Assembly: GCA_035527535.1 (NCBI GenBank)
Contig: DATLAK010000024.1
Location: forward strand, 1 to 40,157
Source of the DNA: Armatimonadota bacterium
GTDB taxonomy: Bacteria > Armatimonadota > Hebobacteria > GCA-020354555 > CP070648
DNA: 40,157 nt
Reading direction: 5' to 3'
The position numbers and the translations under genes were made by a program. Positions 1 through 32,463 of the stretch are shown here, in pieces; the stretch's first letter is position 1, and each line of letters starts with the position of its first letter. The notes under the pieces are model-generated. The model was not told the origin of the DNA. It was given only the letters and a program-made list of their open reading frames with translations, and searched no databases.

Positions 1-322
1 GGTCACATACGACAGGCACGCCCCCCACCATGGCTCTGGACTTGGGCCATCGCACCGAGGAATGTGGCACAGAGCCTGCCCCGAGCTTGCCGAGGGGCGC
101 CCTCGCCTGTGAACTCCGCGCCCCGACCTGTCGGGGCACACACACCCGGGGGCGGGTGTGCCACATGAGGCGCACGCCGTGCGCCCCTACGGATGCAGCC
201 TCCCGCGCTTGAACTTTCGCCTGCTGGGTGCTATTCTTGGCGCGGCCCGAGGATAGGGGAGAGTAGAGAGGAGACTGCAGGCGATTCGGGTGAGGGCGCA
301 GCATGCCGCGCCCCTACATTGC
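1..322. repeat. 322-bp tandem repeat unit, copy 1
   Basis: First of two head-to-tail copies with a 322-bp period, differing at only a handful of positions. The unit contains several small inverted repeats: a CCCCGAC/GTCGGGG palindrome (121-136), GGCGCAC/GTGCGCC (169-185) and a GGGCGC...GCGCCC palindrome (294-313). Short open frames run through it but they are interrupted by these palindromes, have no clear ribosome-binding sites and resemble no protein I know, so I treat the unit as non-coding. The window begins exactly at the repeat unit, so more copies may lie upstream. Confidence 0.9.
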
Positions 323-642
323 GGTCACATACGACAGGCACGCCCCCCACCATGGCTCTGGACTTGGGCCATCGCACCGAGGAATGTGGCACAGAGCCTG
401 CCCCGAGCTTGCCGAGGGGCGCCCTCGCCTGTGAACTCCGCGCCCCGACCAGTCGGGGCACACACACCCGGGGGCGGGTGTGCCACATGAGGCGCACGCC
501 GTGCGCCCCTACGGATGCGGCCTCCCGCGCTTGAACTTTCACCTGCTGGGTGCTATTCTTGGCGCGGCCCGAGGATAGGGGAGAGTAGAGAGGAGACCGC
601 AGGCGATTCGGGTGAGGGCGCAGCATGCTGCGCCCCTACATT
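323..642. repeat. 322-bp tandem repeat unit, copy 2
   Basis: Second copy of the preceding unit. It carries the same palindromes: CCCCGACC/AGTCGGGG at 443-458, GGCGCAC/GTGCGCC at 491-507 and a perfect 20-bp palindrome GGGCGCAGCATGCTGCGCCC at 616-635. Similarity stops at 642, after which a CCCCGATCA/TGATCGGGG hairpin (669-690) directly precedes the tRNA gene. The near identity of the two copies implies a recent duplication or ongoing homogenisation. Confidence 0.9.
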
Positions 643-693
643 CACCTTTCAACTTTCACCTGCTCTCGCCCCGATCAGTCTTGATCGGGGCGC

Positions 694-779
694 GCCGGGG
701 TGGCGGAACGGAAGACGCAGGGGACTTAAAATCCTCGGCCCGCAAGGGCATGCGGGTTCGACTCCCGCCCCCGGCACCA
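694..779 (+). tRNA. tRNA-Leu (anticodon UAA)
   Basis: A class II (long variable arm) tRNA can be folded by eye. The acceptor stem GCCGGGG (694-700) pairs with CCCCGGC (769-775), the discriminator is A776, and CCA is encoded at 777-779. The anticodon stem is GGGGA (720-724) with TCCTC (732-736), including one G-U pair. The loop CTTAAAA puts anticodon TAA at 727-729, reading UUA/UUG leucine codons. The T arm is GCGGG-TTCGACT-CCCGC (752-768). The variable arm, about 737-751, is typical of leucine. The tRNA is immediately preceded by a palindrome-rich repeat array. Confidence 0.95.
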
Positions 780-916
780 CCGCCATGCCCGGCTGCGAGC
801 AGCCCCATGGCCGACGTACGCCGACAGAGCGGCTCCACGCGAAATAGACGTTGACAGGGCACCGCAGGGTTCACTGCGCCATTTCTGACGCGATCCACGG
901 ACCGAAGCGTGCGAAG
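780..916. other. Intergenic spacer between tRNA-Leu and thiL
   Basis: There is no gene here. A perfect TTGACA hexamer at 851-856 could be a -35 box for thiL, but no convincing -10 hexamer lies 16-18 bases downstream, so I do not call a promoter. Confidence 0.5.
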
Positions 917-1957
917 ATGAAACTCAGCGACCTGGGCGAATTCGGCCTCATCGCGCGCCTGCGCGCCCGCTGGCCGCAGTCGCCGGCGGGCGTCGTGGTG
1001 GGTCCCGGCGACGACGCCGCCGCGGTGCAGCCCGACCAGGGCCGGCTGCTGCTATTCACCGTGGACGCGATGGTCGAGGACGTTCACTTCCGCCGGCGCT
1101 GGATGCCCCCGCGCGACCTGGGCTGGAAGGCGATGGCGCAGAGCCTCAGCGACATCGCCGCCATGGGCGGCCAGCCGACCCACGCCCTGGTGTGTCTGAG
1201 CCTGCCTGTCCCGAGTGCAGTCGAGGGGCCCGGCGACCTCGATGCGGGTTTCGTTGACGCTCTCTACGACGGCCTCGACGCCGCCGCCGCCGAGTACGGG
1301 GCGAGCGTGATCGGCGGCGACATCGTGGGCTCGACCGGCGGGGTCATGGTGTCGGTGTCGCTGCTGGGCGAGGTGGAAGAAGGGCTGCTGCTGCGCCGGT
1401 CGGGGGCGCGGCCGGGGGAGGTTTTGATGGTCACGGGCGCCCTCGGCGACGCCGCCGCGGGGCTGCGGTTGCTGGAGGCGGGGGAATCGCCGGCTGCCGG
1501 CGAGGAGAGCGCGGTCACCCGGCACCTGCGCCCCGCCCCGCGCGTGGACGAGGCGCGCATCCTGGCGCGCAGCGGCCAGGTGACCGCCGCCATAGACCTC
1601 AGCGACGGCCTGGCGGGCGACGCGGCGCACATCGCCGAGGAGAGCGGCGTCGGCGTGCGTCTGCATGGCGAGCGGCTGCCTGTCGGCGCGGCGTGCAAGC
1701 AGGTGGCGGCGAGGCTGAGGCTGAATCCGCTCCCGCTGGCCCTGCGCGGGGGCGAGGACTACGAGCTGCTGGTCGCCGTGCGCCCGCAGGCGGCGGAGGG
1801 CCTGGCGGAGCTGCTGCATCACGAGACGGGAACGGCGCTGACCGCGGTCGGCGAGGTGGTCGAGGCCGCGCGCGGCGTCGTGCTCATCGCCGCGGACGGA
1901 ATCGAGGCTACGCTGGGCGGGGCGTTCGATCACTTCGGCGAACCATCCGACCGCTAG
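917..1957 (+). CDS. thiL: Thiamine-monophosphate kinase
   Basis: ThiL phosphorylates thiamine monophosphate to the cofactor thiamine diphosphate with ATP, in the cytoplasm. The 346-residue product has the family marks in order: GPGDDAAAV (about 29-37), TVDAMVEDVHF (48-58), the DIAAMGG segment (79-85), the GGD of the central strand, AIDLSDGLAGD and GGEDYELL near the C-terminus. These are ATP, Mg2+ and substrate-binding elements of the PurM/SelD-like fold. I chose ATG 917 because it begins right before the conserved start (MKLSDLGEFGLI); an in-frame start at 851 would add 22 unlikely residues. Residues 97-106 (PVPSAVEGPG, bases 1205-1234) look like a translated intergenic-type repeat inserted into a loop. 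The gene is followed 42 bases later by xylB. Function is near certain from motifs. Confidence 0.95.
   Translation: MKLSDLGEFGLIARLRARWPQSPAGVVVGPGDDAAAVQPDQGRLLLFTVDAMVEDVHFRRRWMPPRDLGWKAMAQSLSDIAAMGGQPTHALVCLSLPVPSAVEGPGDLDAGFVDALYDGLDAAAAEYGASVIGGDIVGSTGGVMVSVSLLGEVEEGLLLRRSGARPGEVLMVTGALGDAAAGLRLLEAGESPAAGEESAVTRHLRPAPRVDEARILARSGQVTAAIDLSDGLAGDAAHIAEESGVGVRLHGERLPVGAACKQVAARLRLNPLPLALRGGEDYELLVAVRPQAAEGLAELLHHETGTALTAVGEVVEAARGVVLIAADGIEATLGGAFDHFGEPSDR
1205..1234. repeat. Short GC repeat inserted in frame in thiL
   Basis: The stretch CCTGTCCCGAGTGCAGTCGA plus flanking bases is a type of sequence I know mainly as a dispersed intergenic repeat in uncultured-bacterium genomes. Here it is read as PVPSAVEGPG between two conserved parts of ThiL where relatives usually have only a short loop. 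The match to a repeat family is from memory; only the odd insertion is visible here. Confidence 0.5.
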
Positions 1958-1999
1958 CCCGCAGACTGCGGGCAACCGGCGGCGGAGGCGGAGGGAACC

Positions 2000-3529
2000 T
2001 TGAGCTACCTGGTTGGCATTGACGTTGGCACCACCGGCGCGAAGGTGCTGCTGGTAGGAGCGGACGGCGGCATCGTCGCGCGCAGCACCCACGAGTACCC
2101 ACTGCTGACGCCGCGGCCCGCGTGGGCGGAGCAGAACCCCGCGGACTGGTGGGAAGCGACCGCCGCGGGCATCCGCCAGGTGCTCAAGCAGAGCGGCATC
2201 CCGCCGCAGGAGATCGCGGGCATGGGCCTGTCCGGGCAGATGCACGGGTCGGTCTTCCTGGACGAGCGCAGCGAGGTCATCCGGCCGGCGATCCTGTGGT
2301 GCGACCAGCGCACCGCCGACCAGTGCCGCTGGATCACCGACCGCGCCGGCGAGAAAACCGTCGTCGAGGAGACCCTCAACCCCGTGCTCACCGGCTTCAC
2401 CGCGCCCAAGATCGTGTGGCTGCGCCAGAACGAGCCGGAAGCCTACGCCCGCGTGCGCAAGCTCCTGCTGCCCAAGGATTACATTCGCTTCCTGCTGACC
2501 GGGGAGTTCGCGACCGACGTGTCGGATGCGTCCGGCACCTCGCTGCTCAACATTGCCCGGCGGCGCTGGTCGCCGAAGATGCTGGCGGCGCTCGACTTAT
2601 CGGAGGCGATGCTGCCGACGGTACACGAATCGCCGGCGGTGACGGGGGGCATCTCGCCCGCGGCCGCGGAGGCCACGGGGCTGGCGGCAGGCACACCCGT
2701 CGTCGGCGGCGGAGGAGATCAAGCGGCGGGCGCGGTGGGCAACGGCATCGTCCGCCCCGGCGTCATCTCCGTCACCACCGGCACCTCCGGCGTCGTTTTC
2801 GCGCACATGGACGAGCCGCGCGTGGACCCCAGGCTGCGCACTCATACCTTCTGCCACGCGGTGCCGGGCAAGTGGCACGTCATGGGGGCGATGCTGTCGG
2901 CCGGGGGGTCGCTGCGGTGGTATCGGGACGCCCTCGCCCAAGCGGAGGTCGCGGAGGCGAAGAAACGCGGCGTGGATCCTTACGAGCTGCTGACCGCAGA
3001 AGCGGCCTCGGCGCCGCCCGGCTGCGAAGGGTTGATCTTCCTGCCCTACCTCACCGGCGAGCGCACCCCCTACCCCGACCCCTGGGCACGGGGGGTCTAT
3101 TTCGGCCTGAGCCTGCGCCACGGGCGGCCGCACCTGGTGCGCGCCATCCTCGAAGGGGTGTCCTACGGCCTGCGGGATTCGCTGGAGATCCTGCGCGGGA
3201 TGGGCCTGCCCATGTCCCAGGTGCGCGCCTCCGGCGGCGGCGCCCGCAGCGCCCTGTGGCGGCAGATTCAGAGCGATGTCTTCGGCGCCGAGCTGGTGAC
3301 GATCAATGTAGATGAGGGCCCGGCATTCGGCGCGGCGCTGCTGGCGGGCGTGGGCGCGGGGGTTTACGCCAGTGTCGAGGAGGCCTGCGACCGCACCATC
3401 TCCGTCAATCAGCGCACCCGGCCCGACCCCGACACCTCGGCCCGCTACGACGCCTACTACCCCATCTACCAGGCGCTGTACGCGTCGCTCAAGGACCGCT
3501 TCGCCGAGGTGGGGCGGCTGCTACAGTGA
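2000..3529 (+). CDS. xylB: Xylulokinase (FGGY carbohydrate kinase)
   Basis: FGGY-family sugar kinases use ATP to phosphorylate a pentulose, here most likely D-xylulose to xylulose 5-phosphate. The 509-residue length suits XylB. The N-terminal phosphate loop is GIDVGTTGAK (6-15). A GQMHGSVFLD segment and a WCDQRT motif follow in the first domain and are characteristic of xylulokinases. The second domain has GGGGDQAAGAVGNG, the TTGTSGVVF adenosine-site strand and ASGGGARSALWRQI near the C-terminus. Translation probably starts at TTG 2000, preceded by a purine-rich GCGGAGGCGGAGGG. The gene overlaps mobB by 4 bases, so thiL, xylB and mobB are probably cotranscribed despite unrelated functions. 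No xylose isomerase or transporter is adjacent, so the exact sugar is inferred. Confidence 0.88.
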   Translation: MSYLVGIDVGTTGAKVLLVGADGGIVARSTHEYPLLTPRPAWAEQNPADWWEATAAGIRQVLKQSGIPPQEIAGMGLSGQMHGSVFLDERSEVIRPAILWCDQRTADQCRWITDRAGEKTVVEETLNPVLTGFTAPKIVWLRQNEPEAYARVRKLLLPKDYIRFLLTGEFATDVSDASGTSLLNIARRRWSPKMLAALDLSEAMLPTVHESPAVTGGISPAAAEATGLAAGTPVVGGGGDQAAGAVGNGIVRPGVISVTTGTSGVVFAHMDEPRVDPRLRTHTFCHAVPGKWHVMGAMLSAGGSLRWYRDALAQAEVAEAKKRGVDPYELLTAEAASAPPGCEGLIFLPYLTGERTPYPDPWARGVYFGLSLRHGRPHLVRAILEGVSYGLRDSLEILRGMGLPMSQVRASGGGARSALWRQIQSDVFGAELVTINVDEGPAFGAALLAGVGAGVYASVEEACDRTISVNQRTRPDPDTSARYDAYYPIYQALYASLKDRFAEVGRLLQ

Positions 3530-4029
3530 CGGGGGTGACGCCCGTAGTCTCCGTGGTCGGCCGCAGCAACTCCGGCAAGACGACGGTGCTGGAGGGCCTC
3601 ATCGCCGAGCTGACCCGGCGCGGCCTGCGAGTGGGGGTGCTCAAGCATGCAGGGCACGGGTTCGAGATGGACCGCGAGGGCACGGACACCTGGCGTCACC
3701 GGCGTGCGGGCGCGGCGGCGGTGGGGATCATGTCCGACGATGGGGTCGCCGTCATCCGCGCGCTGGAGGGGGAACTGCCGCTGGCGGAAGCGGCGGCGCT
3801 GTTGGGGCCCGACCTCGACGTGGTGTTGACCGAGGGCTTCCGGCGGGCGCCGACGCCCAAGATCGAGGTCATGCGCGCCGAACAGGGAGGCGACGTGCAA
3901 ACCCCGCCCCACCAGTTGCTGGCGGTGGTTGCCGATGGCGCGATGAAAACGGGGGCGCCGGTGCTCGCGTTCGACGATGCGTCGGGCCTGGCCGACCTCG
4001 TCGCCGCCGAGATCAAGCGCCCGCTATGA
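3526..4029 (+). CDS. mobB: Molybdopterin-guanine dinucleotide biosynthesis adaptor protein
   Basis: MobB is a small P-loop GTPase that assists conversion of molybdopterin to the guanine dinucleotide cofactor; it binds GTP and partners MobA. The 167-residue protein opens with the Walker A motif GRSNSGKT (12-19), has the conserved KHAGHGFEMD and DTWRHRRAGA segments and the TEGFR motif near residue 102, and ends with an FDD segment, all usual for MobB. The GTG start at 3526 overlaps the xylB stop in a GTGA arrangement; a second GTG at 3535 is possible. The last 6 bases overlap the convergent isomerase gene. No mobA or molybdoenzyme is in this window, so its client enzymes are unknown. Confidence 0.9.
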   Translation: MTGVTPVVSVVGRSNSGKTTVLEGLIAELTRRGLRVGVLKHAGHGFEMDREGTDTWRHRRAGAAAVGIMSDDGVAVIRALEGELPLAEAAALLGPDLDVVLTEGFRRAPTPKIEVMRAEQGGDVQTPPHQLLAVVADGAMKTGAPVLAFDDASGLADLVAAEIKRPL

Positions 4030-4845
4030 GGACGCAGTGAGCCCCGCCGCGGCCATCGCCTGGCGCGCGTAGTCATGCCACATGCGAGCGAGCTCGCGGC
4101 TGGGCACCTCGGGATGGCGCGCACAGGTCACGACGATGGGGCCGTCGAAGCCAATCGCCTTGAGCCCGCGAAAGACGGAGGGAATGTCGGCCGAGCCCGG
4201 GTCCCCCGGCAGCGCCGGCAGCCATGGCCGCCCGCCGATCATGACCGCCGCGGGCGCTTCGCCGTCGGCCGGCGCCGGCTTGTGGGTCTCCAGGAAGCAC
4301 GCGAACGCGTGCTCCCCCAAGGCCTCCACCGCCGCCTGGCCGTGCTCGCGGTCGTCGAACATGAGCTGGCTTGCCTCGAACGCCACCCCGAAGTTGGCGC
4401 GCCCGATCATGGCCAGGGTCTGGCGCGCCATCTCGATATTGGCGAACAGCGTGCCGCTGTGGATGGGGCTGGCGACGCGCAGGCCGCGTTCGGCCGCGCG
4501 GTCGGCGAGCTGCTGGGCGAACGGTATCTCCGCCTCGCGCACGAGCTGCACACGGATAAGGCCGCAATTGAGCGCCAGCGCTACCCCCAGCAGGCGCGTC
4601 GCGTCATCCACCGCCGCCGCGTTCTCCAGTCCGGCGGCGGTGACATTGGCGCAGCGCAGACCGCGCCGCCCCAGCACGTCGCGGATGGTGGCGAGCTCGG
4701 CCGGGCTCGACGTCTCATTGACCTGGCGTCGCCGCAGCTCGATGCCGTCGTAGCCGATCTCCGCCAGCAGCGACGCCAGCTCCTCCAGGCCCAGCTCGTA
4801 GCCGGTGCGCTGCTCGAACATGCGCGCGGACAGTGCCAGTAGCAT
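4024..4845 (-). CDS. Sugar phosphate isomerase/epimerase, TIM-barrel family
   Basis: The 273-residue product belongs to the xylose-isomerase-like TIM-barrel superfamily (AP endonuclease 2 fold), whose members isomerise or epimerise sugars and inositol derivatives using a divalent metal. Visible marks are the N-terminal LEELASLLAEIGYDGIELRRRQ strand-helix unit with its catalytic-type Glu, the ADRAAERGLRVASPIHSGT strand with a His, a FEASQL segment and the C-terminal FDGPIVVTCARHP. No signal peptide is present. It starts at ATG 4845. It is convergent with mobB, sharing 6 bases, and stands alone. The substrate cannot be read from sequence; a link to the xylulokinase gene is possible but unproven. 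Confidence 0.75.
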   Translation of the reverse strand: MLLALSARMFEQRTGYELGLEELASLLAEIGYDGIELRRRQVNETSSPAELATIRDVLGRRGLRCANVTAAGLENAAAVDDATRLLGVALALNCGLIRVQLVREAEIPFAQQLADRAAERGLRVASPIHSGTLFANIEMARQTLAMIGRANFGVAFEASQLMFDDREHGQAAVEALGEHAFACFLETHKPAPADGEAPAAVMIGGRPWLPALPGDPGSADIPSVFRGLKAIGFDGPIVVTCARHPEVPSRELARMWHDYARQAMAAAGLTASS

Positions 4846-4862
4846 GATCTCTCCACACCCCA

Positions 4863-4888
4863 GCCGGGAGGCGCACGCGCTTCCCGGC
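4863..4888. repeat. GC-rich hairpin upstream of the isomerase gene
   Basis: GCCGGGAGGCG and CGCTTCCCGGC form an 11-bp stem with a CACG loop (one G-U pair). It lies 18 bases before the isomerase start in the 4846-5028 spacer. It may be another dispersed palindrome or a leader structure. Confidence 0.5.
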
Positions 4889-4972
4889 GGATTGGCCTGC
4901 GGGGCTCGCCCGCAAGCGTCACTGACTACGCCACGCGGGGGCGCTCGACCTTTCTCCCCTCAGCCATGGCAA

Positions 4973-4998
4973 AGGCCGGTGGAACCCTCCACCGGCCT
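4973..4998 (-). terminator. Putative hairpin terminator after the NifU-like gene
   Basis: AGGCCGGTGGA (4973-4983) pairs perfectly with TCCACCGGCCT (4988-4998) around a four-base loop. On the minus strand it is followed by a short T-containing stretch (TTTGCC), and it lies 30 bases past the stop codon of the NifU-like gene. It has no long T run, so it may act only as a 3' end stabiliser. Confidence 0.55.
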
Positions 4999-5028
4999 CA
5001 GTACGTCGCCGACATGCGACCGCGCGGG

Positions 5029-5253
5029 CTAGGCAGCCACCACCTGCTGCACCCCGGGCACCTGCTCCTTGAGCACCTGCTCCACCCCGCGTTGCAGCGT
5101 CATCTGCGCCATCGGGCAACCGACGCAGGCCCCCTTCAGCCGCACCTTGACGATCCCCTCCTGCTCGTCCACGTCCACCAGGTCAATGTCACCGCCGTCG
5201 GCCTGCAGGCGCACGCGGATGTCGTCTATCGCTTGCTGCACCTTTTCGCGCAT
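5029..5253 (-). CDS. NifU-like C-terminal domain protein (Fe-S cluster scaffold/carrier)
   Basis: This 74-residue protein is a stand-alone NifU C-terminal-type domain (NFU), which carries or assembles an Fe-S cluster on a CxxC pair and passes it to target proteins. It shows the usual ADGGDIDLVDV strand, a KVRLKGACVGCPMAQMT core with Cys pair at about residues 43 and 46, and the helix RGVEQVLKEQVPGV. Length is right for a single-domain Nfu. The start at ATG 5253 follows an AAGGAA ribosome-binding site. It precedes a hairpin terminator and lies downstream of hpt in the same direction. No isc or suf genes are nearby, so clients are not indicated. Confidence 0.92.
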   Translation of the reverse strand: MREKVQQAIDDIRVRLQADGGDIDLVDVDEQEGIVKVRLKGACVGCPMAQMTLQRGVEQVLKEQVPGVQQVVAA

Positions 5254-5342
5254 GGAGCTTCCTTTCCGCAGTCAATTCGACCTGCTCCAAGCATACCCGC
5301 CGCCGTGGGGCGTGTCAACCGCTGCCTTGTGCGTCCCGACCA

Positions 5343-5888
5343 CTAGCCGCCGTAGATCTCCGGCTTGAGCACCGCGACGTAGGGCAGACTGCGGTAGCGG
5401 TGCGCGAAATCGAGCCCGTAGCCGACGACGAATTCGTTGGGTACCTGGAAGCCGACGTAGTCGAGCTGCACCTCCACCTGACGCCGGCTGGGCTTATCCA
5501 GCAGCGCCGCCACCGCCAGGCTCGCGACCTTGCGCGTCTCGAGGTTCTCCAGCAGGTAGCGCAGGGTCAGCCCGGTGTCCACGATGTCCTCGACCACCAG
5601 CACGTGCTGACCCTCGACATTGAGGCTCAGGTCCTTGAGGAGCTGCACCGCGCCGGAGGAGGTAGCGCCCTCGCGATAGCTCGACCACTTGACGAAGTCC
5701 ACGCGCACGGGGATGGTCAGCGCGCGCATGAGGTCGGCCAGGAACACCACCGCGCCGTCGAGCACTCCCACCAGCACCGGCTCGCGGTCGCGGTAGTCGG
5801 CGCTGATCCGCGCCCCCATCTCCGCCACCCGTGCGGCGATCCGGTCGGCGGTCAGCAGCACCTCCCTGACATCGGGGTGAGCGCTCAT
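5343..5888 (-). CDS. hpt: Hypoxanthine phosphoribosyltransferase
   Basis: The enzyme salvages hypoxanthine and guanine by transfer of phosphoribose from PRPP, giving IMP and GMP. The 181-residue protein has the PRPP-binding motif VVEDIVDTGLTL (about 99-110), the hydrophobic VGVLDGAVVFLADL strand near residues 38-51, a VDFVKWSSYREG flexible loop and the C-terminal PNEFVVGYGLDF, all typical. I set the start at ATG 5888 after AAAGG; the open frame extends far upstream only because it reads through repeat DNA. A large hairpin repeat ends about 13 bases upstream of the start, so the promoter must lie inside or beyond that repeat. Confidence 0.93.
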   Translation of the reverse strand: MSAHPDVREVLLTADRIAARVAEMGARISADYRDREPVLVGVLDGAVVFLADLMRALTIPVRVDFVKWSSYREGATSSGAVQLLKDLSLNVEGQHVLVVEDIVDTGLTLRYLLENLETRKVASLAVAALLDKPSRRQVEVQLDYVGFQVPNEFVVGYGLDFAHRYRSLPYVAVLKPEIYGG

Positions 5889-5900
5889 TGGCCTTTGCCA

Positions 5901-5987
5901 TGTCGTTCTGAGTGCAGCGAAGAATCCCCTACCCCTGATGCGCCAGGATAGGGGACTCTTCGGTCGCTGCGCTTCCTCAGAGTGACA
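5901..5987. repeat. Long REP-like imperfect inverted repeat
   Basis: Two arms starting TGTCGTTCTGAG and ending CTCAGAGTGACA pair over about 30 bases. They share the inner segments TGCAGCGAAGAATCCCCTA and TAGGGGACTCTTCGGTCGCTG, and the loop holds CTGATGCGCCAGG. This layout is like dispersed palindromic elements seen in many metagenome-derived genomes. It sits directly before hpt and downstream of groEL on the same strand. Confidence 0.75.
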
Positions 5988-6064
5988 ATTGTGCTCTGGT
6001 GCTCCGTCAACCATGTTTCGAGGGATTCCTTGGGCGCGCGATGTCAATCGCGCGAAGCCGCCCG

Positions 6065-6090
6065 TAGGGGCAAGGCATGCCTTGCCCCTA
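6065..6090. repeat. Perfect 26-bp palindrome, TAGGGGC/GCCCCTA family
   Basis: The arms TAGGGGCAAGGCA and TGCCTTGCCCCTA are exactly complementary. The same 26-bp sequence recurs at 21484-21509 and, with one end base changed, inside mrfA at 24653-24678. Here it lies in the groEL-hpt spacer (5889-6149), which holds no gene. Confidence 0.9.
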
Positions 6091-6149
6091 CCTGTGTCGC
6101 GCCCGGTGCGACCCCGAAGAACACCCATCAATTCATCGTTGACGCAACA

Positions 6150-7769
6150 CTAATACGGCGGCATGCCGTGGCCGTGGGGCGCGGGCGGCGCCTTTTCTTC
6201 CTCGGGGATCTCCGCGACCACCGCCTCGGTGGACAAGATCATGGCGACGATGCTGGTCGCGTTCTCCAGCGCGCTGCGCGTGACCTTGGCCGGGTCCACG
6301 ATCCCCGCCTCCATCATGTCCCCGTACTTCTCGGTCATGACGTCGAGGCCGTGGCCCGCGGGCAGGGCCTTGATCTTGGCGACCACGACCGATCCCTCCA
6401 TCCCCGCGTTGTTGGCGATCTGGCGCGCGGGCTCCTCCAGGGCGCGGCGCATGATGTCCACGCCGATGGCGGCGTCGCCCTTGAGCCGCACCTGCTTGAG
6501 CGCGGGGACGGCGTTGAGGTAGGTCACCCCGCCGCCGGCGACGATCCCTTCCTCGACCGCGGCGCGGGTGGCGGAGAGGGCGTCCTCCATGCGGTGCTTG
6601 CGCTCCTTGAGCTCGGTCTCGGTGGCGGCGCCGACGTTGACGATGGCTACGCCGCCGGCGAGCTTGGCCAGACGTTCCTGCAGCTTCTCGCGGTCATAGG
6701 AGGAGTCGGTGTCCTCGATCTCGCGCTTGATCTGGGCGATGCGCCCCTGGATCGCCTCGGCGCTGCCCTTGCCCTCGACGACGGTGGTGTCGTCCTTGGT
6801 GACGATCACGCGCTTGGCGCGCCCCAGCATGTCGGTGGTAACGTTCTCGAGCTTGCCCCCGAGATCCTCGGAGATGAAGCTGCCGGCGGTGAGCAGCGCC
6901 AGGTCCTGCAACATCGCCTTGCGGCGATCGCCGAAGCCGGGCGCCTTGACCGCGACCGCGGTGAAGGTGCCGCGCAGCTTGTTGACCACCAGCGTCGCCA
7001 GCGCCTCGCCCTCGACGTCCTCGGCCACGATCAACAGCGGCTTGCCCGCGCGCATCGCCGCCTCCAGCACCGGCAGCAGGTCCGCCACCGTCGAGACCTT
7101 CTTCTCGTAGATGAGGATATAGGGATCCTCCAGCACCGCCTCCATGCGCTCGGCGTTGGTGACCATGTAGGGCGAGATGTAGCCCTTGTCGAACTGCATC
7201 CCCTCCACCAGCTCGAGCGTGGTCTCGGCGCTCTTGCCCTCCTCGACGGTGATGACGCCGTCCTTGCCGACCTTGTCCATCGCCTCGGAGATGACCTCGC
7301 CGATGCGCTTCTCGCGCGCGGCGATCGCCGCCACCTGCGCGATCTTGGCCTTGGTCTCGACCGGGAGCGCGGACTTGGCGATGTGCTTGACCACCGCGTC
7401 GCGCGCCGCCTCCAGCCCGCGCTTGATGAACATGGGGTTGGCGCCCGCCGCCACCGCCTTCATCCCCTCGCGCATCATCGCCTGCGCGAGCACGGTGGCG
7501 GTGGTGGTGCCGTCGCCGGCCACGTCATTGGTCTTGGACGCCACCTCCTTCACCAGTTGCGCGCCCAGGTTCTCGAAGCGGTCCTCGACCTCGATCTCCT
7601 TGGCGATGGTGACCCCGTCGTCAATGATGGTCGGCGAGCCGAACTTCTTCTCCAGCATCACCGTGCGGCCGCGCGGCCCCAGGGTCACGCGCACCGCGTT
7701 GGCGAGGATGTTGACCCCGCGCTCCAGCGCGCGCCGGGCCTCCTCGCTGTATGCCAAATCCTTTGCCAT
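6150..7769 (-). CDS. groEL: Chaperonin GroEL
   Basis: GroEL forms the double-ring ATP-driven folding chamber with GroES. The 539-residue product has the equatorial-domain start [15 protein letters not shown], the ATP loop [16 protein letters not shown] (about 82-97), the apical [15 protein letters not shown] segment and the [19 protein letters not shown] / VAGGG signature near 385-415. The C-terminus ends HGHGMPPY, a short His-containing tail in place of the usual GGM repeat. The start at 7769 follows GAGGAGG. It lies 91 bases after groES in the same direction and should be cotranscribed from the promoter before groES. No CIRCE repeat is seen upstream, so HrcA control is not indicated. Confidence 0.98.
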
Positions 7770-26820: not shown

Positions 26821-27681
26821 ATGACTACCGCGCTGCGCGATCAGCTTTCATACTTGCAGCGGAATCGCGGCCGGGCGGGATTGCCGCGCGGACGACGGGG
26901 CACCACCGCGGGTGGAGCGCGGGTCTCTCTGGATCCCGATCTATCGGGGCCCCCGCCCGGGCCATGCGGCACCCCGACCGCCCTCGACCTCCGGCTGGCC
27001 GCCACCGAGCAGGGGGAGTTGCTGGTATGGGAGAAAAGCATCTCCGCGGTCTGGTCCCAAGCCGGGCAGGTGACGCAGAGCCTGTGGGCGGCGCTGGATG
27101 GCGCGGGGGCCGGCGCATCGTCCGCAACTGAGCTGGAGCCGCTGTCGCGGGTGGACCCGACGCGGGTCGGCTGGGTGGACATCGAGACCGCCGGGTTTAT
27201 CGGACGTCCGGTCTTCCTCGTCGGCCTGATGCGGCCGGTTGACGGCGAATTGGTGATCACGCAGCTCCTGGCGCGGGACTACTCGCAGGAGCGGGCGCTG
27301 CTGGCGGCGTGCGCGGCGCTGGTGGCGGAATTGGAGGTGCTGGTGACCTTCAACGGGAAGTGCTTCGACCTGCCGTTCCTGCGCGATCGCATGGCGTATC
27401 ACCGGTTGGCGGGGGAACTGGAGGTGGAGGCGGTGGACCTGCTGTGGGCGGCGCGGCGGCGCTGGCGGGGGCGGGTGCCTGATTGCCGCCTGCAGACGCT
27501 GGAGCGGCACCTGTGCCGACGGCTGCGCGCGGGCGACATCCCCGGGGCGGAGATCCCGCAGCGCTACCACGATTTCGTGCGCAGTCGGGAGGCGGGGCTC
27601 ATCGCGCCCGTCATGCGCCACAACCGGCTGGATCTTCTGACCATGGCCGAGCTGTCGGCCTTGCTGCTGGGGGAGCCATGA
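26821..27681 (+). CDS. mrfB: MrfB-type RNase H-like 3'-5' exonuclease
   Basis: The 286-residue protein matches MrfB (YprB), the metal-dependent exonuclease partner of MrfA. It has the DEDDh pattern: WVDIETAGF with Asp120 and Glu122, VTFNGKCFDLPFLRDR with Asp183, and MRHNRLDLLTMAEL with His267 and Asp271. A variable 110-residue N-terminal part includes DPDLSG (38-43), coded by a small CCCGAT/ATCGGG palindrome. The TPR-like C-terminal region of B. subtilis YprB is missing, as the protein stops after the nuclease domain. ATG 26821 has only a distant GGAG. The end overlaps the J-domain gene by 4 bases (ATGA), so the two should be translationally coupled. Confidence 0.9.
   Translation: MTTALRDQLSYLQRNRGRAGLPRGRRGTTAGGARVSLDPDLSGPPPGPCGTPTALDLRLAATEQGELLVWEKSISAVWSQAGQVTQSLWAALDGAGAGASSATELEPLSRVDPTRVGWVDIETAGFIGRPVFLVGLMRPVDGELVITQLLARDYSQERALLAACAALVAELEVLVTFNGKCFDLPFLRDRMAYHRLAGELEVEAVDLLWAARRRWRGRVPDCRLQTLERHLCRRLRAGDIPGAEIPQRYHDFVRSREAGLIAPVMRHNRLDLLTMAELSALLLGEP
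26935..26948. repeat. CCCGAT/ATCGGG palindrome within mrfB
   Basis: CCCGAT-CT-ATCGGG lies in frame in the variable N-terminal part of mrfB, in a CGATCTATCGGGG context similar to the hairpin at 669-690. It is short, so its link to the repeat family is tentative. Confidence 0.5.
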
Positions 27682-28580
27682 AAAAAGCCGAGCCGGACTA
27701 CTACGCGGTGATGGGGGTGAAGCGCGATGCCGCGCTGGGCGCGATCAAGCAGGCGTATCGGGAGCTGGTGCGCCGCTATCACCCGGACGCGGCGAGGGAT
27801 GACCCACAGGCGCCGCGCGAGTTCGCGCTGCTGCAGATGGCCTACGAGACGCTGTCCGACCCCGCCAAGCGCGCGCAGTACGACAAGTCCCTGCCGCGGC
27901 AGAAATATCCGCTGGCCGAGCTTGAACCCGAGCATCTGTGGCGCGAGGCCACGGAGCTCATTCTCGAGCGCTCCGATGCCTTCGAGATCATGATCCAGGC
28001 GATGCGCGCGGCGGCGCCCATCGCCGTCGAGGGCAACCTGCTGGTGGTGGGCCTCGCGGGCAAGGATCAGTACTTGTCCGGGCACCTGGAAACCCCCGCC
28101 CACCGCCATCGCATCACCGGGGTGCTGCGCGAGGTCTCGGGGCAGGAGATCGAATACCGCGTGATTGAAGGCACCACCCAGGAGGACTGGGACTGGGTCA
28201 AGCGCGCCGAGGGGCGCAAGCCCCACCTCGAACCATCGCCCCCGCCCCCGGGCGCCAAGGCCGGGAAGGAGCCCCTTAAGGAGCGCCCGGCGAAAGCCCC
28301 CCAGGTCACAGCCTGGGAGCTGCTGGCGCGCAAGATCCAGAACACCTGGCAGAACACGCCCAACCGCCAGCACCCGCTGGCCCGCGCCGAGTTCGTCCTC
28401 ACCTGCGTCAACTGGATCTCCGAGGAGGCGAAGGCCGCCTCCGGCGATGGCGCCCAGCGCGACGCCATCCACCGCGAGGTCGGCAAAGCGGTCGAGCGCA
28501 TCGCCCAGCTCCTCGACCTGCCGCCGACCGTGGTGGCGCTGGAGCTCGTGCGCTCTCAGCCCCGCCGGCGGGCGAGTTGA
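27678..28580 (+). CDS. J-domain protein with unique C-terminal region
   Basis: The 300-residue protein begins with a good J domain (residues 6-68), including the HPD tripeptide at 35-37 (RRYHPDAARDD) and the helix FALLQMAYETLSDPAKRAQYDKS, so it should stimulate an Hsp70. No Gly/Phe region, zinc finger or CTD I/II follows, so it is not DnaJ proper. Residues about 90-175 (LWREATELI ... LLVVGLAGKDQYLSGHLE ... GQEIEYRVIEG) faintly recall the N-terminal domain of DnaA. A Pro/Lys linker leads to a helical C-terminal domain (TAWELLARKIQNTW to LDLPPTVVALELV). ATG 27678 overlaps mrfB by 4 bases, suggesting a role tied to the MrfAB repair pair, which is inference. Confidence 0.85.
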   Translation: MKKAEPDYYAVMGVKRDAALGAIKQAYRELVRRYHPDAARDDPQAPREFALLQMAYETLSDPAKRAQYDKSLPRQKYPLAELEPEHLWREATELILERSDAFEIMIQAMRAAAPIAVEGNLLVVGLAGKDQYLSGHLETPAHRHRITGVLREVSGQEIEYRVIEGTTQEDWDWVKRAEGRKPHLEPSPPPPGAKAGKEPLKERPAKAPQVTAWELLARKIQNTWQNTPNRQHPLARAEFVLTCVNWISEEAKAASGDGAQRDAIHREVGKAVERIAQLLDLPPTVVALELVRSQPRRRAS

Positions 28581-28621: not shown

Positions 28622-28987
28622 ATGGGACGAGTTCACGACCTCCTATTCGCCGGACCCACGCTGATCGTCAGCTTGCCCGATAATTCACTCGACCTCACGT
28701 GGCGCGTGTCGCCGAGCGCTCCACGGCTCCTCCTGCTGGCGGGGATACCCTCGCCGCAGGTATGGTCGCTCAACCGGACAGGGGTGATTGGGCTGCTGGA
28801 GGCACTGGGGATGAGGAACTTCGCGGAAGCCTACCGTGAGTACTATCTATCCGCGTGGGTCTATTTCCTGTCAGGGTACTCCGACTCCGCGGCCGCGCGC
28901 AGCACGGTGGCCGCGGCAATTACCGCTCTGCGGTTAGCGGCAAACGCGGCCGAGACGGTGGGTGCAAGCGAAGCCAGATCACTGTGA
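28622..28987 (+). CDS. Chimeric small open frame; start duplicated from the TIM-barrel gene
   Basis: This frame of 121 codons has a strong GGGAGGA site before ATG 28622. Its first 25 residues (including AGPTLIVSLPDNSLDL) are almost identical to the start of the protein encoded at 30158, because bases 28640-28696 repeat 30179-30235 with one mismatch. After residue 25 the sequence is unrelated to that protein and I do not recognise it: a short hydrophobic stretch (PRLLLLAGIPSP), then helical segments (EALGMRNFAEAYREYYLSAW and an Ala-rich end). It may be the remnant of the original TIM-barrel start fused to inserted DNA, or a genuine small gene of the inserted segment. Confidence 0.45.
   Translation: MGRVHDLLFAGPTLIVSLPDNSLDLTWRVSPSAPRLLLLAGIPSPQVWSLNRTGVIGLLEALGMRNFAEAYREYYLSAWVYFLSGYSDSAAARSTVAAAITALRLAANAAETVGASEARSL
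28640..28696. repeat. 57-bp direct repeat, left copy
   Basis: This matches 30179-30235 at 56 of 57 bases (T versus G at 28647). It lies at codons 7-25 of the chimeric frame. The two copies bound a 1.48-kb segment that carries the nucleotidyltransferase/HEPN pair. Confidence 0.95.
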
Positions 28988-29091
28988 CGCTGCCGGTTCG
29001 GAGGCTGGGCTTTTCGGCCGCGACGCGAGTCGGGGCGCCATTCGAGACGACATGACCACATGTGGGCACGATACATCGAGGGAAACCGAAC

Positions 29092-29135
29092 TTGACCAAT
29101 AATATCGGTCAACAGACCAATAATGTTGGTCAATC
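29092..29135 (+). promoter_or_regulatory. AT-rich operator-like repeats at the MNT gene start
   Basis: GACCAATAATATCGGTCAACA (21 bases, 29094-29114) is followed directly by a variant at 29115-29135. Each unit is also an inverted repeat (TTGACC...GGTCAA; GACCAA...TTGGTC). The 21-base spacing is two helical turns. It stands out as AT-rich in a GC-rich region and overlaps the predicted start codon, fitting a binding site for the winged-helix protein itself. Confidence 0.6.
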
Positions 29136-29724
29136 CGGCTTGGGGCAGCTCTTTGCCTCCCCGACCCTCGTCGCCCTCCTGCGGCTGTTCGTCTTGCGGC
29201 CGGGCCAGGCTTTCTACCAGCGCCAGTTGGCGCAGGCAGTAGGGGCGCGGCTGTACTTGGTGCAGCGAGAGCTCGGCCGGCTGGAGAACGCGGGCCTCGT
29301 GACGCGGACGCCCCAAGGCAACCGCGTTTACTATCGGCTCAAATCGCGCCACCCTGCACTCGACGACCTCAGGCGACTGCTGCTCAAGACGGTCGCCATC
29401 GGCGACGCCCTGCGTTCGGCGCTCCTGCCGCTGGAGGAGCGAGTGCTGGTCGCCTTCATCTACGGCTCCTTCGCAAGCGGCAACGAGACTGCGGACAGCG
29501 ACATAGACCTGCTGGTAATCGGACGCCTTTCCGCGAAGGAGGCGGCTCGTGCACTGGGCCCGGTGGGGCGCGATCTCGGGCGCGAGTTGAATGCAGCCTT
29601 CTACCCGCCGGAGGAGTTCCGCAAAAAGGCTCGGGACGGGCACCATTTCGTTAGCCAGGTGCTGGCGGCGCCCAAAGTGTTCTTGATCGGGGGCGAGGAT
29701 GAGCTTGCAGGACTTGCTGGCTGA
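29092..29724 (+). CDS. Winged-helix nucleotidyltransferase-domain protein (MNT-type)
   Basis: The 210-residue protein joins a winged helix-turn-helix (about 18-85: LFASPTLVALLRLFVLRP, QLAQAVGARLYLVQRELGRLENAGLVTRT) to a minimal nucleotidyltransferase domain with YGSFASGNETADSDIDLLV (about 124-141; GS pair and DxD metal ligands). Such proteins are usually encoded with a HEPN partner, as toxin-antitoxin modules in which the MNT protein can modify the HEPN protein. I set the start at TTG 29092, 8 bases after GAGGGAAAC-like purines; GTG 29062 is the alternative. The first 14 residues are a 7-residue repeat (TNNIGQ, TNNVGQ) coded by a 21-bp direct repeat that looks like an operator. It overlaps the HEPN-like gene by 26 bases. 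Confidence 0.82.
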   Translation: MTNNIGQQTNNVGQSGLGQLFASPTLVALLRLFVLRPGQAFYQRQLAQAVGARLYLVQRELGRLENAGLVTRTPQGNRVYYRLKSRHPALDDLRRLLLKTVAIGDALRSALLPLEERVLVAFIYGSFASGNETADSDIDLLVIGRLSAKEAARALGPVGRDLGRELNAAFYPPEEFRKKARDGHHFVSQVLAAPKVFLIGGEDELAGLAG

Positions 29725-30148
29725 GGGCAGGCTCCGCAGACACGAGACGTCGGCGGATGAAGTTAGCGCTCTCTTGCAGGTATCGGAGCGCGACCTTGCG
29801 GACGCCGTGATTGCCGCGCTTTCGACCGACCGACGTTTTGCGACCGCCTACAATGGCGCGTTGGCGCTCGCAACAATGGTGCTGCACGCGGCCGGTTATC
29901 GTGCATCGGGAGCCGGACATCACTGGGTGACTCTTCGGGCGTTACCGCTCATCATGGGGGAGCAGTTTCAGGCGAAGGCTGATTACTTTGACCAGTGTCG
30001 CTCGAAGCGCAATATCGCCGATTACGATCGGGTGGGTGAGGTCGCAGACGCGCAGGTCGCCGAACTGGTCGCGGAGACCCGGACGTTTCAGGGCGAGGTG
30101 TTGCAGTGGCTGCGAGCGATCCACCCGCAGCTTGCGCCGGAGGGTTAG
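29699..30148 (+). CDS. HEPN-like domain protein, partner of the MNT-type protein
   Basis: The 149-residue, mostly helical protein fits a HEPN-like fold: YNGALALATMVLHAAGYRASGAGHHW (51-76) resembles the second helix and the following loop, and RSKRNIADYD (101-110) lies at the usual catalytic position. The RNase motif R-x4-6-H is not complete: Arg104 is followed by Asn, and no His lies within reach, while Tyr109 is present. It may therefore be a non-cleaving binding partner. ATG 29699 overlaps the MNT gene by 26 bases. HEPN assignment rests on motif and on the neighbour, and I would not exclude a different four-helix family. Confidence 0.7.
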   Translation: MSLQDLLAEGRLRRHETSADEVSALLQVSERDLADAVIAALSTDRRFATAYNGALALATMVLHAAGYRASGAGHHWVTLRALPLIMGEQFQAKADYFDQCRSKRNIADYDRVGEVADAQVAELVAETRTFQGEVLQWLRAIHPQLAPEG

Positions 30149-30157
30149 CTTCCTGGC

Positions 30158-30901
30158 ATGTCTAAACACGCCTACGAACTCCTATGCGCCGGACCCACGC
30201 TGATCGTCAGCTTGCCCGATAATTCACTCGACCTCGCGCGCGCCGCCGCCGCAGGCGGCGCGCACGCGCTCAAGACCCATATCAACGTCCACCACGACGC
30301 CAGCGGCACCCACTTCGGCTCGTTGGAACAGGAGCGCCCTCGCCTGCAGGCCATCCTCGACGCGGTGAACCTGCCCGTGGGCATCGTCCCGGGGGTCACT
30401 GACCCCCTGCGCCGCGACGAGCTGGAGACCCTCGCCGACATGGGCTTCGATTTCGTGGACACCTTCGCCCACTGTTTCCCGTCGTGGCTGATCGGCAATG
30501 CGGCGCCGCCGCCCCGCGGCGTGAGCTTGGAGCAGGCCCCGGCGGTGAAGCGCATGACGCGGGTGATGGCCATAGACGTGACTTACAGCGCCGAGGCGGC
30601 GACGAGCCTGGCCGCGGTCGGCATGGAGGTGCTGGAGGCGGCGGTGATCCCGCACGACCAGTACGGCCGGCCGCTGACCGCCGCCGACCTGGCGCTCTAC
30701 TCGCGCCTGGCGCAGGCGGTGCCGACGCCCATCATCGTCCCCAGCCAGCGCCGTTTCGAGCCGGACGATGTCGCCCATATCGTCGCCGCCGGCGTCACCG
30801 GCATAATGATCGGCGCCATCGTCACCGGCGTCGAAGCGGCGAGCCTGGAGGCGGCCACGCGCGGTTTCCGCGCCGCCCTGGACGAGCTGGCGGCCTCATG
30901 A
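30158..30901 (+). CDS. Ribulose-phosphate-binding-type TIM-barrel protein, function unknown
   Basis: The 247-residue protein reads as a phosphate-binding TIM barrel. It has regular strand-helix units: TLIVSLPDNSLDLARAAAAG, ALKTHINVHHD, LPVGIVPG, FDFVDTFAHCFPSWLI, VMAIDVTYSAEA, MEVLEAAVIPHDQYG and PTPIIVPSQRRF. A final GVTGIMIGAIVTGVE suits the phosphate-binding loop of HisA/TrpC/NanE-like enzymes. I cannot name the reaction. ATG 30158 has no close ribosome-binding site, while the left repeat copy at 28622 has an excellent one; this suggests that the inserted segment displaced the original start. Its stop overlaps the DUF4127 start in an ATGA, so the two are likely to work together. Confidence 0.7.
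   Translation: MSKHAYELLCAGPTLIVSLPDNSLDLARAAAAGGAHALKTHINVHHDASGTHFGSLEQERPRLQAILDAVNLPVGIVPGVTDPLRRDELETLADMGFDFVDTFAHCFPSWLIGNAAPPPRGVSLEQAPAVKRMTRVMAIDVTYSAEAATSLAAVGMEVLEAAVIPHDQYGRPLTAADLALYSRLAQAVPTPIIVPSQRRFEPDDVAHIVAAGVTGIMIGAIVTGVEAASLEAATRGFRAALDELAAS
30179..30235. repeat. 57-bp direct repeat, right copy
   Basis: This is the partner of 28640-28696, at codons 8-26 of the TIM-barrel gene. Upstream of it the codons differ between the two genes, and downstream only this copy continues into a full TIM-barrel protein. Confidence 0.95.
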
Positions 30902-32463
30902 GACCGCCCGGCGCGGCCACGGCGAAGATCCCCGCCTTCGCCCTGCTCCCCCTGGACGACCGGCCGCCCAACCTGCAATTCCCTCGCCGGCTGGCGGCCA
31001 TTGGCGGGCTTGAGTTGCGCGTGCCGCCGCGGCGACAGCTCGGTCGCTTCCTGCGCCCGGGCGACACCGAGGCGCTGGGGCAGTGGCTGGCAGCGGTCGC
31101 GGGCGAGGTGCAGGGGATAATCGTCTCCTGCGACATGCTGGCCTACGGCGGGCTGGTCGCCTCGCGCACCACGGAGGTGACTCAGCAGGCAGCGGCCGCC
31201 CGCGTGCGCCGGCTGTGCGATCTGCGACGGCGTTTCCCGCACCTTCGCATCCACGCCTTCGCCGTCATCCCGCGGCTGGGGCTGACCGTTTCATCGCCGC
31301 GGTTGGCCAAGCTCGGCCCCATGCTGGCGCGCTACGACGCGCTGCGCCACCGCCCGGCCCTGGAGCCGGCGGAGGCCGAGGAGCTGACGCGGCTGGGGGC
31401 GGCGCTGCCGCCCGCGGTGGTCGCCGGCCACGCGGCCATGCGGCGGCGCAATCTCGCGGTCAACAAGGAGCTCGTCGGGCTGGCGGAGCGGGGGGTCGTG
31501 GATTACCTGGTGCTGGCGCAGGAGGACGCGCCGCCCAGCGGCCCCCACGTCGCCGAGCAGGCGGAGCTGGCAACGGAGGCTGCGTCGCGCGGCGTCGCCG
31601 AGGTGGTGCGCATCTTCCCCGGGGCGGACGAGCAGGGCATGGTTCTGCTGGCGCGCGCGGCAGGAAGGGCATACGGCGCGATCGTCCGGGTGCAGGTCAT
31701 GTGCAGCACGCCGGGTGGGACCGAGTGCCTCGCGCTGTTCGAGGATCGGCCGGTCGGCCGGACCTTGGCCGGCCAGATCGAGGCGGCGGGGCTGGAGATC
31801 GCGCCCACCGCGCAAGCCGCCGACATCGTCCTCGCCTTGCATACGCCGCCGACCCCGACCCAGGACGATATCACCTGCGTCGCGCCCGGCTCCGCGCCGC
31901 CCGCGGAGTTCATCGGCCGCATCGCGCAGGCGACTGCCGCGGGCCGGGCGGTCGCGCTCGCCGATGTCGCCTACTGCAACGGGGTTGACCCGGCGCTCAT
32001 CGCCGCCCTCGCCGGCCACCGCGCGCTGCCGCGCCTGGCCGCCTTTGCCGGCTGGAATACCGCCGGCAACACCATCGGCGCCGCCCTGGCGCACGCGGCC
32101 CTGCGCGTGATGGGCGCGCGCGCGACCGCCGGCAGCGCGCCCCGCCGCGCTCATGTCGAGTTCCTGTTCGAGCGCCTGCTCGACGACTTCGGCTACCAGA
32201 CGGTGGTGCGCGCGCAGGCCTATCGCTTTGCGCGCGAGGAGCTGGGAGCCTATCCGCTGCACCTGCGGCGCGGGCGGCGCCGGGCGGCGGAATACGTCCG
32301 TCGCCGGCTGGGTGATGTCGCGCGCGGGCTGTTCGCCGCGCATTTCGCCGGCGTCGAGGTGGACCGCGCGCGCATCGCCGAGCTGCGCGACCTGCGCATA
32401 CGCCTGCCGTGGCCGCGCCTGTTCGAGGTCGAGGTGGAGGCGCGCATCGCAGTCACCGCGTGA
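30898..32463 (+). CDS. DUF4127 family protein
   Basis: The 521-residue product matches DUF4127, a family without a known reaction. Family marks are LLPLDDRPPNLQFPRRLA near residue 16, the SCDMLAYGGLVASR block (about 78-91), LAQEDAPPSGPHVAEQ, the FPGADEQGMVLLARA block around residue 240 and ADVAYCNGVDPALI with FAGWNTAGNTIG (about 355-385). Conserved Asp, Asn and Glu clusters suggest an enzyme with a metal or sugar-like ligand, which is inference. There is no signal peptide. It starts at ATG 30898, overlapping the TIM-barrel stop, and ends 16 bases from the convergent addA gene. Confidence 0.88.
   Translation: MRPPGAATAKIPAFALLPLDDRPPNLQFPRRLAAIGGLELRVPPRRQLGRFLRPGDTEALGQWLAAVAGEVQGIIVSCDMLAYGGLVASRTTEVTQQAAAARVRRLCDLRRRFPHLRIHAFAVIPRLGLTVSSPRLAKLGPMLARYDALRHRPALEPAEAEELTRLGAALPPAVVAGHAAMRRRNLAVNKELVGLAERGVVDYLVLAQEDAPPSGPHVAEQAELATEAASRGVAEVVRIFPGADEQGMVLLARAAGRAYGAIVRVQVMCSTPGGTECLALFEDRPVGRTLAGQIEAAGLEIAPTAQAADIVLALHTPPTPTQDDITCVAPGSAPPAEFIGRIAQATAAGRAVALADVAYCNGVDPALIAALAGHRALPRLAAFAGWNTAGNTIGAALAHAALRVMGARATAGSAPRRAHVEFLFERLLDDFGYQTVVRAQAYRFAREELGAYPLHLRRGRRRAAEYVRRRLGDVARGLFAAHFAGVEVDRARIAELRDLRIRLPWPRLFEVEVEARIAVTA

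Follow-up and report, generated by a model that had tools for sequence, protein, structure and literature searches.

The window analysed here, 40,157 nucleotides of an Armatimonadota draft genome (contig DATLAK010000024.1), contains a pair of overlapping genes for a nucleotidyltransferase and a HEPN protein, situated between a J-domain gene and a gene for a TIM-barrel protein (Table 1). These adjacent genes are strongly matched by both models of PDC-M05 (M05A and M05B, E about 1e-55), in the order and with the overlap known for that system, and the pair is assigned to this archaeal-enriched candidate defence system, whose antiviral role is unconfirmed (PMC12988326). The nucleotidyltransferase motif GS-x10-D-x-D is present as GSFASGNETADSDID, and 17 sequences show little or no variation at its Gly, Ser and both Asp residues. 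The partner has the HEPN fold, in that its best structural matches are HEPN domains and HepT (probability 0.75–1.00, with Foldseek E values of only 0.05–1). Its alignment lacks the canonical Rx4-6H motif; RSKRNIADY occurs instead, with no conserved His at that place, and the invariant residues are R101, R104 and Y109. With HEPN-MNT type VII systems (PMC7641770, PMC2701414, PMC3710099) the pair shares the nucleotidyltransferase motif, the HEPN fold, a conserved C-terminal tyrosine, a leading nucleotidyltransferase gene and horizontal mobility, which for HEPN-MNT pairs is known from their distribution (PMC2701414). Unlike those systems, the antitoxin in the window bears an N-terminal winged HTH, and the HEPN protein is without the Rx4-6H RNase motif and resembles the SAV_6107 family, whose type of HEPN is listed as devoid of this motif (PMC3710099). 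It is likely that the HTH-nucleotidyltransferase serves as antitoxin and autorepressor and the HEPN protein as its partner, these toxin and antitoxin roles being inferred in the absence of toxicity data.

Table 1. Features at the insertion locus (window coordinates) and a comparable bracket in genome G472.
Feature	Position	Strand	Details
J-domain (DnaJ-like) gene, upstream neighbour of the target	27678..28580	+	PF00226, E=1.4e-21
Left remnant (chimeric frame), 121 aa	28622..28987	+	TIM-barrel start codon and first 25 codons running into a 96-codon tail
Left repeat copy	28635..28699	+	57-bp unit 28640-28696; exact 49-bp core 28648-28696
Winged-HTH and minimal nucleotidyltransferase gene (PDC-M05A)	29062..29724	+	PADLOC PDLC04368, E=9.8e-56; PF18765/PF01909; GS-x10-D-x-D
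Two 17-bp near-palindromes, GACCAATAATATCGGTC and GACCAATAATGTTGGTC, 21 bp apart	29094..29131		probable autoregulatory operator pair
HEPN gene (PDC-M05B), overlapping the preceding gene	29699..30148	+	PADLOC PDLC04374, E=8.3e-55; model pLDDT 93
Target gene, TIM-barrel protein (phosphate-binding superfamily)	30158..30901	+	new start codon 9 nt past the HEPN stop
Right repeat copy	30174..30238	+	57-bp unit 30179-30235; codes for the first helix and strand of the barrel (secondary structure)
DUF4127 gene, downstream neighbour	30898..32463	+	PF13552, E=1.1e-127; also 3' of the TIM-barrel gene in genome G001
porB/HepT-MntA bracket in genome G472	L165 1608-3821 (G472:C29)	cassette on opposite strand	BrnT/BrnA-like pair just beyond

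The pair is enclosed by a 57-bp direct repeat, the two copies of which agree at 56 of 57 positions (the single mismatch is T at 28647 against G at 30186). The exact core spans 49 bp, the right-hand copy of it lying at 30187–30235; when the alignment is extended to 65 bp, 62 positions agree (95%) and the mismatches are confined near the outer ends. Spacing between the copies is 1539 bp. The best of the other direct repeats in this region reach only 14–35 bp at 71–93% identity, and the 49-bp exact repeat is therefore not due to chance. The left copy corresponds to codons 7–25 of the chimeric frame, counted from ATG 28622, and the right copy to codons 8–26 of the TIM-barrel gene, counted from ATG 30158. 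A sequence-only reading of the window had described this repeat around the nucleotidyltransferase/HEPN pair, and its coordinates, codons and frames held in full. A whole-genome search found the 57-bp sequence only in these two copies in the 3.24-Mb assembly, and a 35-bp stretch of the core did not occur in the viral contigs searched; other cassettes flanked by the same sequence, which the sequence-only reading had proposed to look for, were thus found in neither. The insert is 64% G+C against 70–74% in the flanks, and searches of plasmid and phage collections with its DNA gave no hit.

Comparison with relatives demonstrates that the arrangement is an insertion into the start of the TIM-barrel gene. 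The TIM-barrel gene comes immediately after the J-domain gene in G001, a genome of the same family, and at ten further loci of the same class, and none of these 11 loci carries a nucleotidyltransferase/HEPN pair between the two genes. Given these empty sites, the left copy marks where the gene originally began and retains its ribosome-binding site (GGGAGG, shortly 5' of ATG 28622), and the right copy continues into the gene body. The restored TIM-barrel frame is intact and begins 9 nt 3' of the HEPN stop codon without a well-placed Shine-Dalgarno sequence, so that translation by coupling to the HEPN gene is its likely mode of expression, as inferred from sequence alone. Nothing related to the tail of the chimeric frame (96 codons, 28697–28984) turned up in 290 further genomes of the phylum or in Pfam, PADLOC and NCBIfam, and the codon-position signal of this tail is weak. 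In the TIM-barrel protein itself we observed an additional stretch of about 16 residues (the IGNAAPPPRGVSLEQAPAVK region, 30470–30550) that is missing from 12 aligned homologues and in which the confidence of the structural model falls.

The empty-site comparison had been suggested in the sequence-only reading as a check on an insertion, and it succeeded. The same reading held that the left copy keeps a strong ribosome-binding site while the right copy supplies a new start for the TIM-barrel gene, which is borne out, the right start being without a strong ribosome-binding site of its own. It also held that no recombinase gene lies inside the cassette, and no such domain was found in the insert using Pfam, PADLOC and NCBIfam. 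Neither was a sigma-70-like promoter found in the insert. A transposon was considered and rejected, as the longest inverted repeats near the insert are not at its ends.

We asked whether the bracketed anatomy recurs in other members of the family. A scan with a HEPN alignment gathered 51 further PDC-M05 loci from GTDB genomes by sequence alone, and displaced pseudo-cassettes in the same DNA served as controls. Exact bracketing repeats of at least 17 bp were present at 12 of 71 testable loci, all belonging to the HEPN-scan set (12 of 44), as against 2 of 186 displaced controls (p=5e-6); a looser test with gapped alignments found brackets at 13 of 69 loci versus 4 of 92 controls (p=0.003). Around 29 loci of the phylum, no exact repeat of 18 bp or longer was found besides that of the window; the bracketing is thus not apparent within the phylum, which counts against the explanation preferred below. 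The bracketed anatomy is a habit of the PDC-M05 family, shown by about a quarter of the testable loci in the HEPN-scan set. The exact repeats measure 19–83 bp and mostly differ in sequence, and no att sequence is common to the members: outside the vsr and dnaG groups, each bracketed locus has its own repeat. The clear brackets consist of gene ends, which we take to be, from reading their translations, those of dnaG (5' end, L064 and L071), vsr (pieces, L080, L087, L088 and L096), a porB-like gene (3' end, L061; porB denotes the beta gene of 2-oxoacid:ferredoxin oxidoreductase) and a peptidase-E-like gene (3' end, L109). Single, uninterrupted dnaG and porB genes in relatives represent the empty sites. 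The two dnaG loci carry cassettes that are 93% identical and reflect one lineage event, and we did not count them as two targets; the vsr cases, within one family, may not be independent either. The repeats at L065, L069, L082 and L092 are non-coding or dispersed, may have other causes and were excluded from the gene-end argument. Most of these loci come from draft metagenome assemblies for which we had no reads.

The same target genes also receive other cassettes. At L123, the first 27 codons of vsr are followed by a PIN (VapBC-like) pair and then by an entire vsr that has a start codon of its own, which is the plan seen in the window. A nucleotidyltransferase pair lies between vsr and a copy of the vsr end at L127. 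In G472, a relative of the genome that carries L061, porB and an 88% copy of the porB end flank a canonical HepT/MntA pair that is encoded on the opposite strand (PF01934, E=8e-24). That one target accommodates many cassettes, and one cassette family many targets, argues against a site-specific enzyme encoded by the element.

Several further arrangements around vsr were observed. Among 30 vsr loci from one set of relatives, PDC-M05 pairs or pieces adjoin vsr, in both orientations, at L111–L113, L119, L121 and L139, making vsr a favoured neighbour. At L139, vsr is broken at codon 43 beside a PDC-M05 pair, and the arrangement is bracketed by an 81-bp exact repeat at 1710–1790 and 3033–3113; this repeat is apparently a dispersed intergenic sequence, with a third partial copy at 747. 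L080 (positions 1–7260, CAMBVX010000263.1, in cassette orientation) has six vsr pieces in 8.5 kb, and the cassettes among them are VapBC-like, PDC-M05, AbiEii-like and PIN, resembling a toxin-antitoxin array built on vsr fragments.

The porB loci bear on the origin of the second gene-end copy. A local duplication followed by decay would give private differences spread over codon positions. At L061, 17 of the 20 differences between the copy and the resident porB are bases that occur in the porB of other species, and the resident allele has no private changes in the compared stretch; in G472, alleles of other species account for 20 of 26 differences between the two porB copies. Random substitution would yield 4–8 such matches, also if it is made to respect codon positions (p<5e-5). 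When five comparisons are pooled, third codon positions account for 57 of 101 differences. A tree of the porB pieces, which are short, does not significantly separate the copy from the resident allele (p-AU 0.14) and places the G472 pair weakly as sisters, and the claim of import accordingly rests on the shared alleles. On this basis the second porB copies of L061 and G472 were likely imported rather than duplicated in place. In the window, the two gene starts resemble each other beyond the exact core (HDLLFAG versus YELLCAG), and this resemblance and the restriction of mismatches to the edges agree with import as a possibility without proving it, the copies being alike at 62 of 65 positions and close relatives lacking. 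That the window repeat arose as in the porB cases is an inference from these related loci.

The explanation that we prefer, with moderate confidence, is host homologous recombination of a recombinase-free cassette that carries a borrowed gene end; the dependence on RecA, the circles, the route of transfer, the translational coupling and the toxin and antitoxin roles within it are all inferred. According to this model, a PDC-M05 cassette was inserted into the TIM-barrel gene so as to separate its promoter and ribosome-binding site from its body. The incoming DNA would most likely already have contained a homologous TIM-barrel gene start joined to the cassette, import at the window being itself inferred, and host recombination would have taken place within the 49 identical bases, between the carried piece and the resident gene start. 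This would have left part of the gene start on either side of the cassette: to the left the 25-codon stub behind the old ribosome-binding site, to the right the copy that restores the frame. The same repeats could then release the cassette as a circle, able to re-enter any cell that has the gene, although such excision is inferred. How a cassette first joins a new gene end is left unexplained by this mechanism.

The strongest competing explanation, which remains possible, is a long target duplication, whereby some unknown event akin to transposition or repair makes a cut with a wide stagger (about 50–200 bp), the gap is filled in and both copies derive from the recipient gene, as has been suggested for restriction-modification systems. 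The anatomy that it would produce looks alike from outside, the two window copies share 95% of their bases, and a review describes restriction-modification systems whose insertion goes with long, variable duplications of the target, about 100 bp in length, with no known mobile element (PMC3874152, citing Nobusato 2000 and Furuta 2010, PMC2853133). Against it, the copies in L061 and G472 are foreign alleles, and the share of third-position differences exceeds the roughly 44% that we guess for a single decaying copy (p=0.008).

Site-specific integration, in which the 49-bp core would be an att site and the integrase would act in trans or have been deleted later, is unlikely. An identical core with divergence only outside it, a gene end as target and a restored frame are features commonly seen when att sites lie within genes. 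However, the insert has no integrase, related cassettes have unrelated repeats and targets while unrelated cassettes have one target in common, and the searches of viral contigs for the 35-bp core stretch and of plasmid and phage DNA for the insert were negative. The sequence-only reading had left the choice between site-specific and recombinational insertion of a toxin-antitoxin-like cassette with repair of its target. Insertion, restoration of the frame and the recombinational half of that proposal are supported; the site-specific half is not, because related cassettes have unrelated brackets and different cassettes share one target gene.

An assembly artefact, in which segments of unrelated strains were joined from short reads through a 49-mer common to both, is very improbable. 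The genome is a draft of 192 contigs without reads, which leaves room for such an artefact, but the gene order on both flanks is that conserved in relatives, the pair lies in its normal operon, and assemblies made independently, among them a 2.76-Mb contig (L109), show the same anatomy. Finally, an ancestral arrangement with the chimeric frame as a real, conserved gene, which would have refuted the sequence-only reading and in favour of which one could cite the strong ribosome-binding site and the 121 open codons, is all but excluded, being refuted within the sampled class by the absence of the frame from 11 of 11 loci and by a tail that lacks relatives in the 290 phylum genomes and has little codon-position signal.

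Host recombination with a carried gene end can be set beside two known modes of insertion. Like the restriction-modification systems that generate long target duplications, the cassette is a small addictive gene complex with no recombinase, long variable target repeats and empty sites in relatives. It differs in its cargo, which is a nucleotidyltransferase/HEPN pair in the window and other toxin-antitoxin pairs elsewhere, without restriction-modification genes; in addition, the repeats examined here are mostly gene ends, and in two cases one copy appears to be an imported allele. Integrative elements at tRNA- or prfC-type sites restore the gene that they interrupt, and the window shares with them a direct repeat derived from a gene end and a restored frame; unlike them, it has no integrase, and the family has no common att sequence. 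In the literature that we searched (titles, abstracts and selected passages), we found no description of such a bracket for toxin-antitoxin or PDC-M05 modules, nor of the way in which PDC-M05 moves.

The idea that cassettes carry the end of an adjacent gene as a homology arm offers a testable route for their movement and links toxin-antitoxin modules to a two-decade-old observation on restriction-modification systems. The two porB cases give evidence that the ‘duplication' is an imported allele. The landing genes identified here provide specific places at which excision, RecA dependence and transfer could be measured. A bolder reading, which we hold to be rather less well supported than its negation, is that the toxin-antitoxin and defence cassettes of several families make up a class of mobile units without a recombinase, in which a piece of a host gene is the portable part. 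If this were true, the homology arm from a gene end would let host recombination insert, excise and exchange cassettes across species, and ordinary genes such as vsr and porB would be shared landing pads.

The cassette also appears to control its own expression. A repeat matching at 13 of 17 positions or better, at a spacing of 20–22 bp near the nucleotidyltransferase start, occurs at 28 of 79 family loci where 0.6 would be expected. Because such paired near-palindromes recur, we regard autoregulation of the cassette by the HTH domain as likely, this being inferred from the sequence alone. The nucleotidyltransferase might start at TTG 29092 or TTG 29140 instead of GTG 29062. Operator pairs are found in many relatives (upstream regions of L030–L109), and in several of these the second copy contains the start codon, which a -10-like box precedes at a short distance; from these positions we infer that leaderless or near-leaderless mRNA is a possibility in several relatives.
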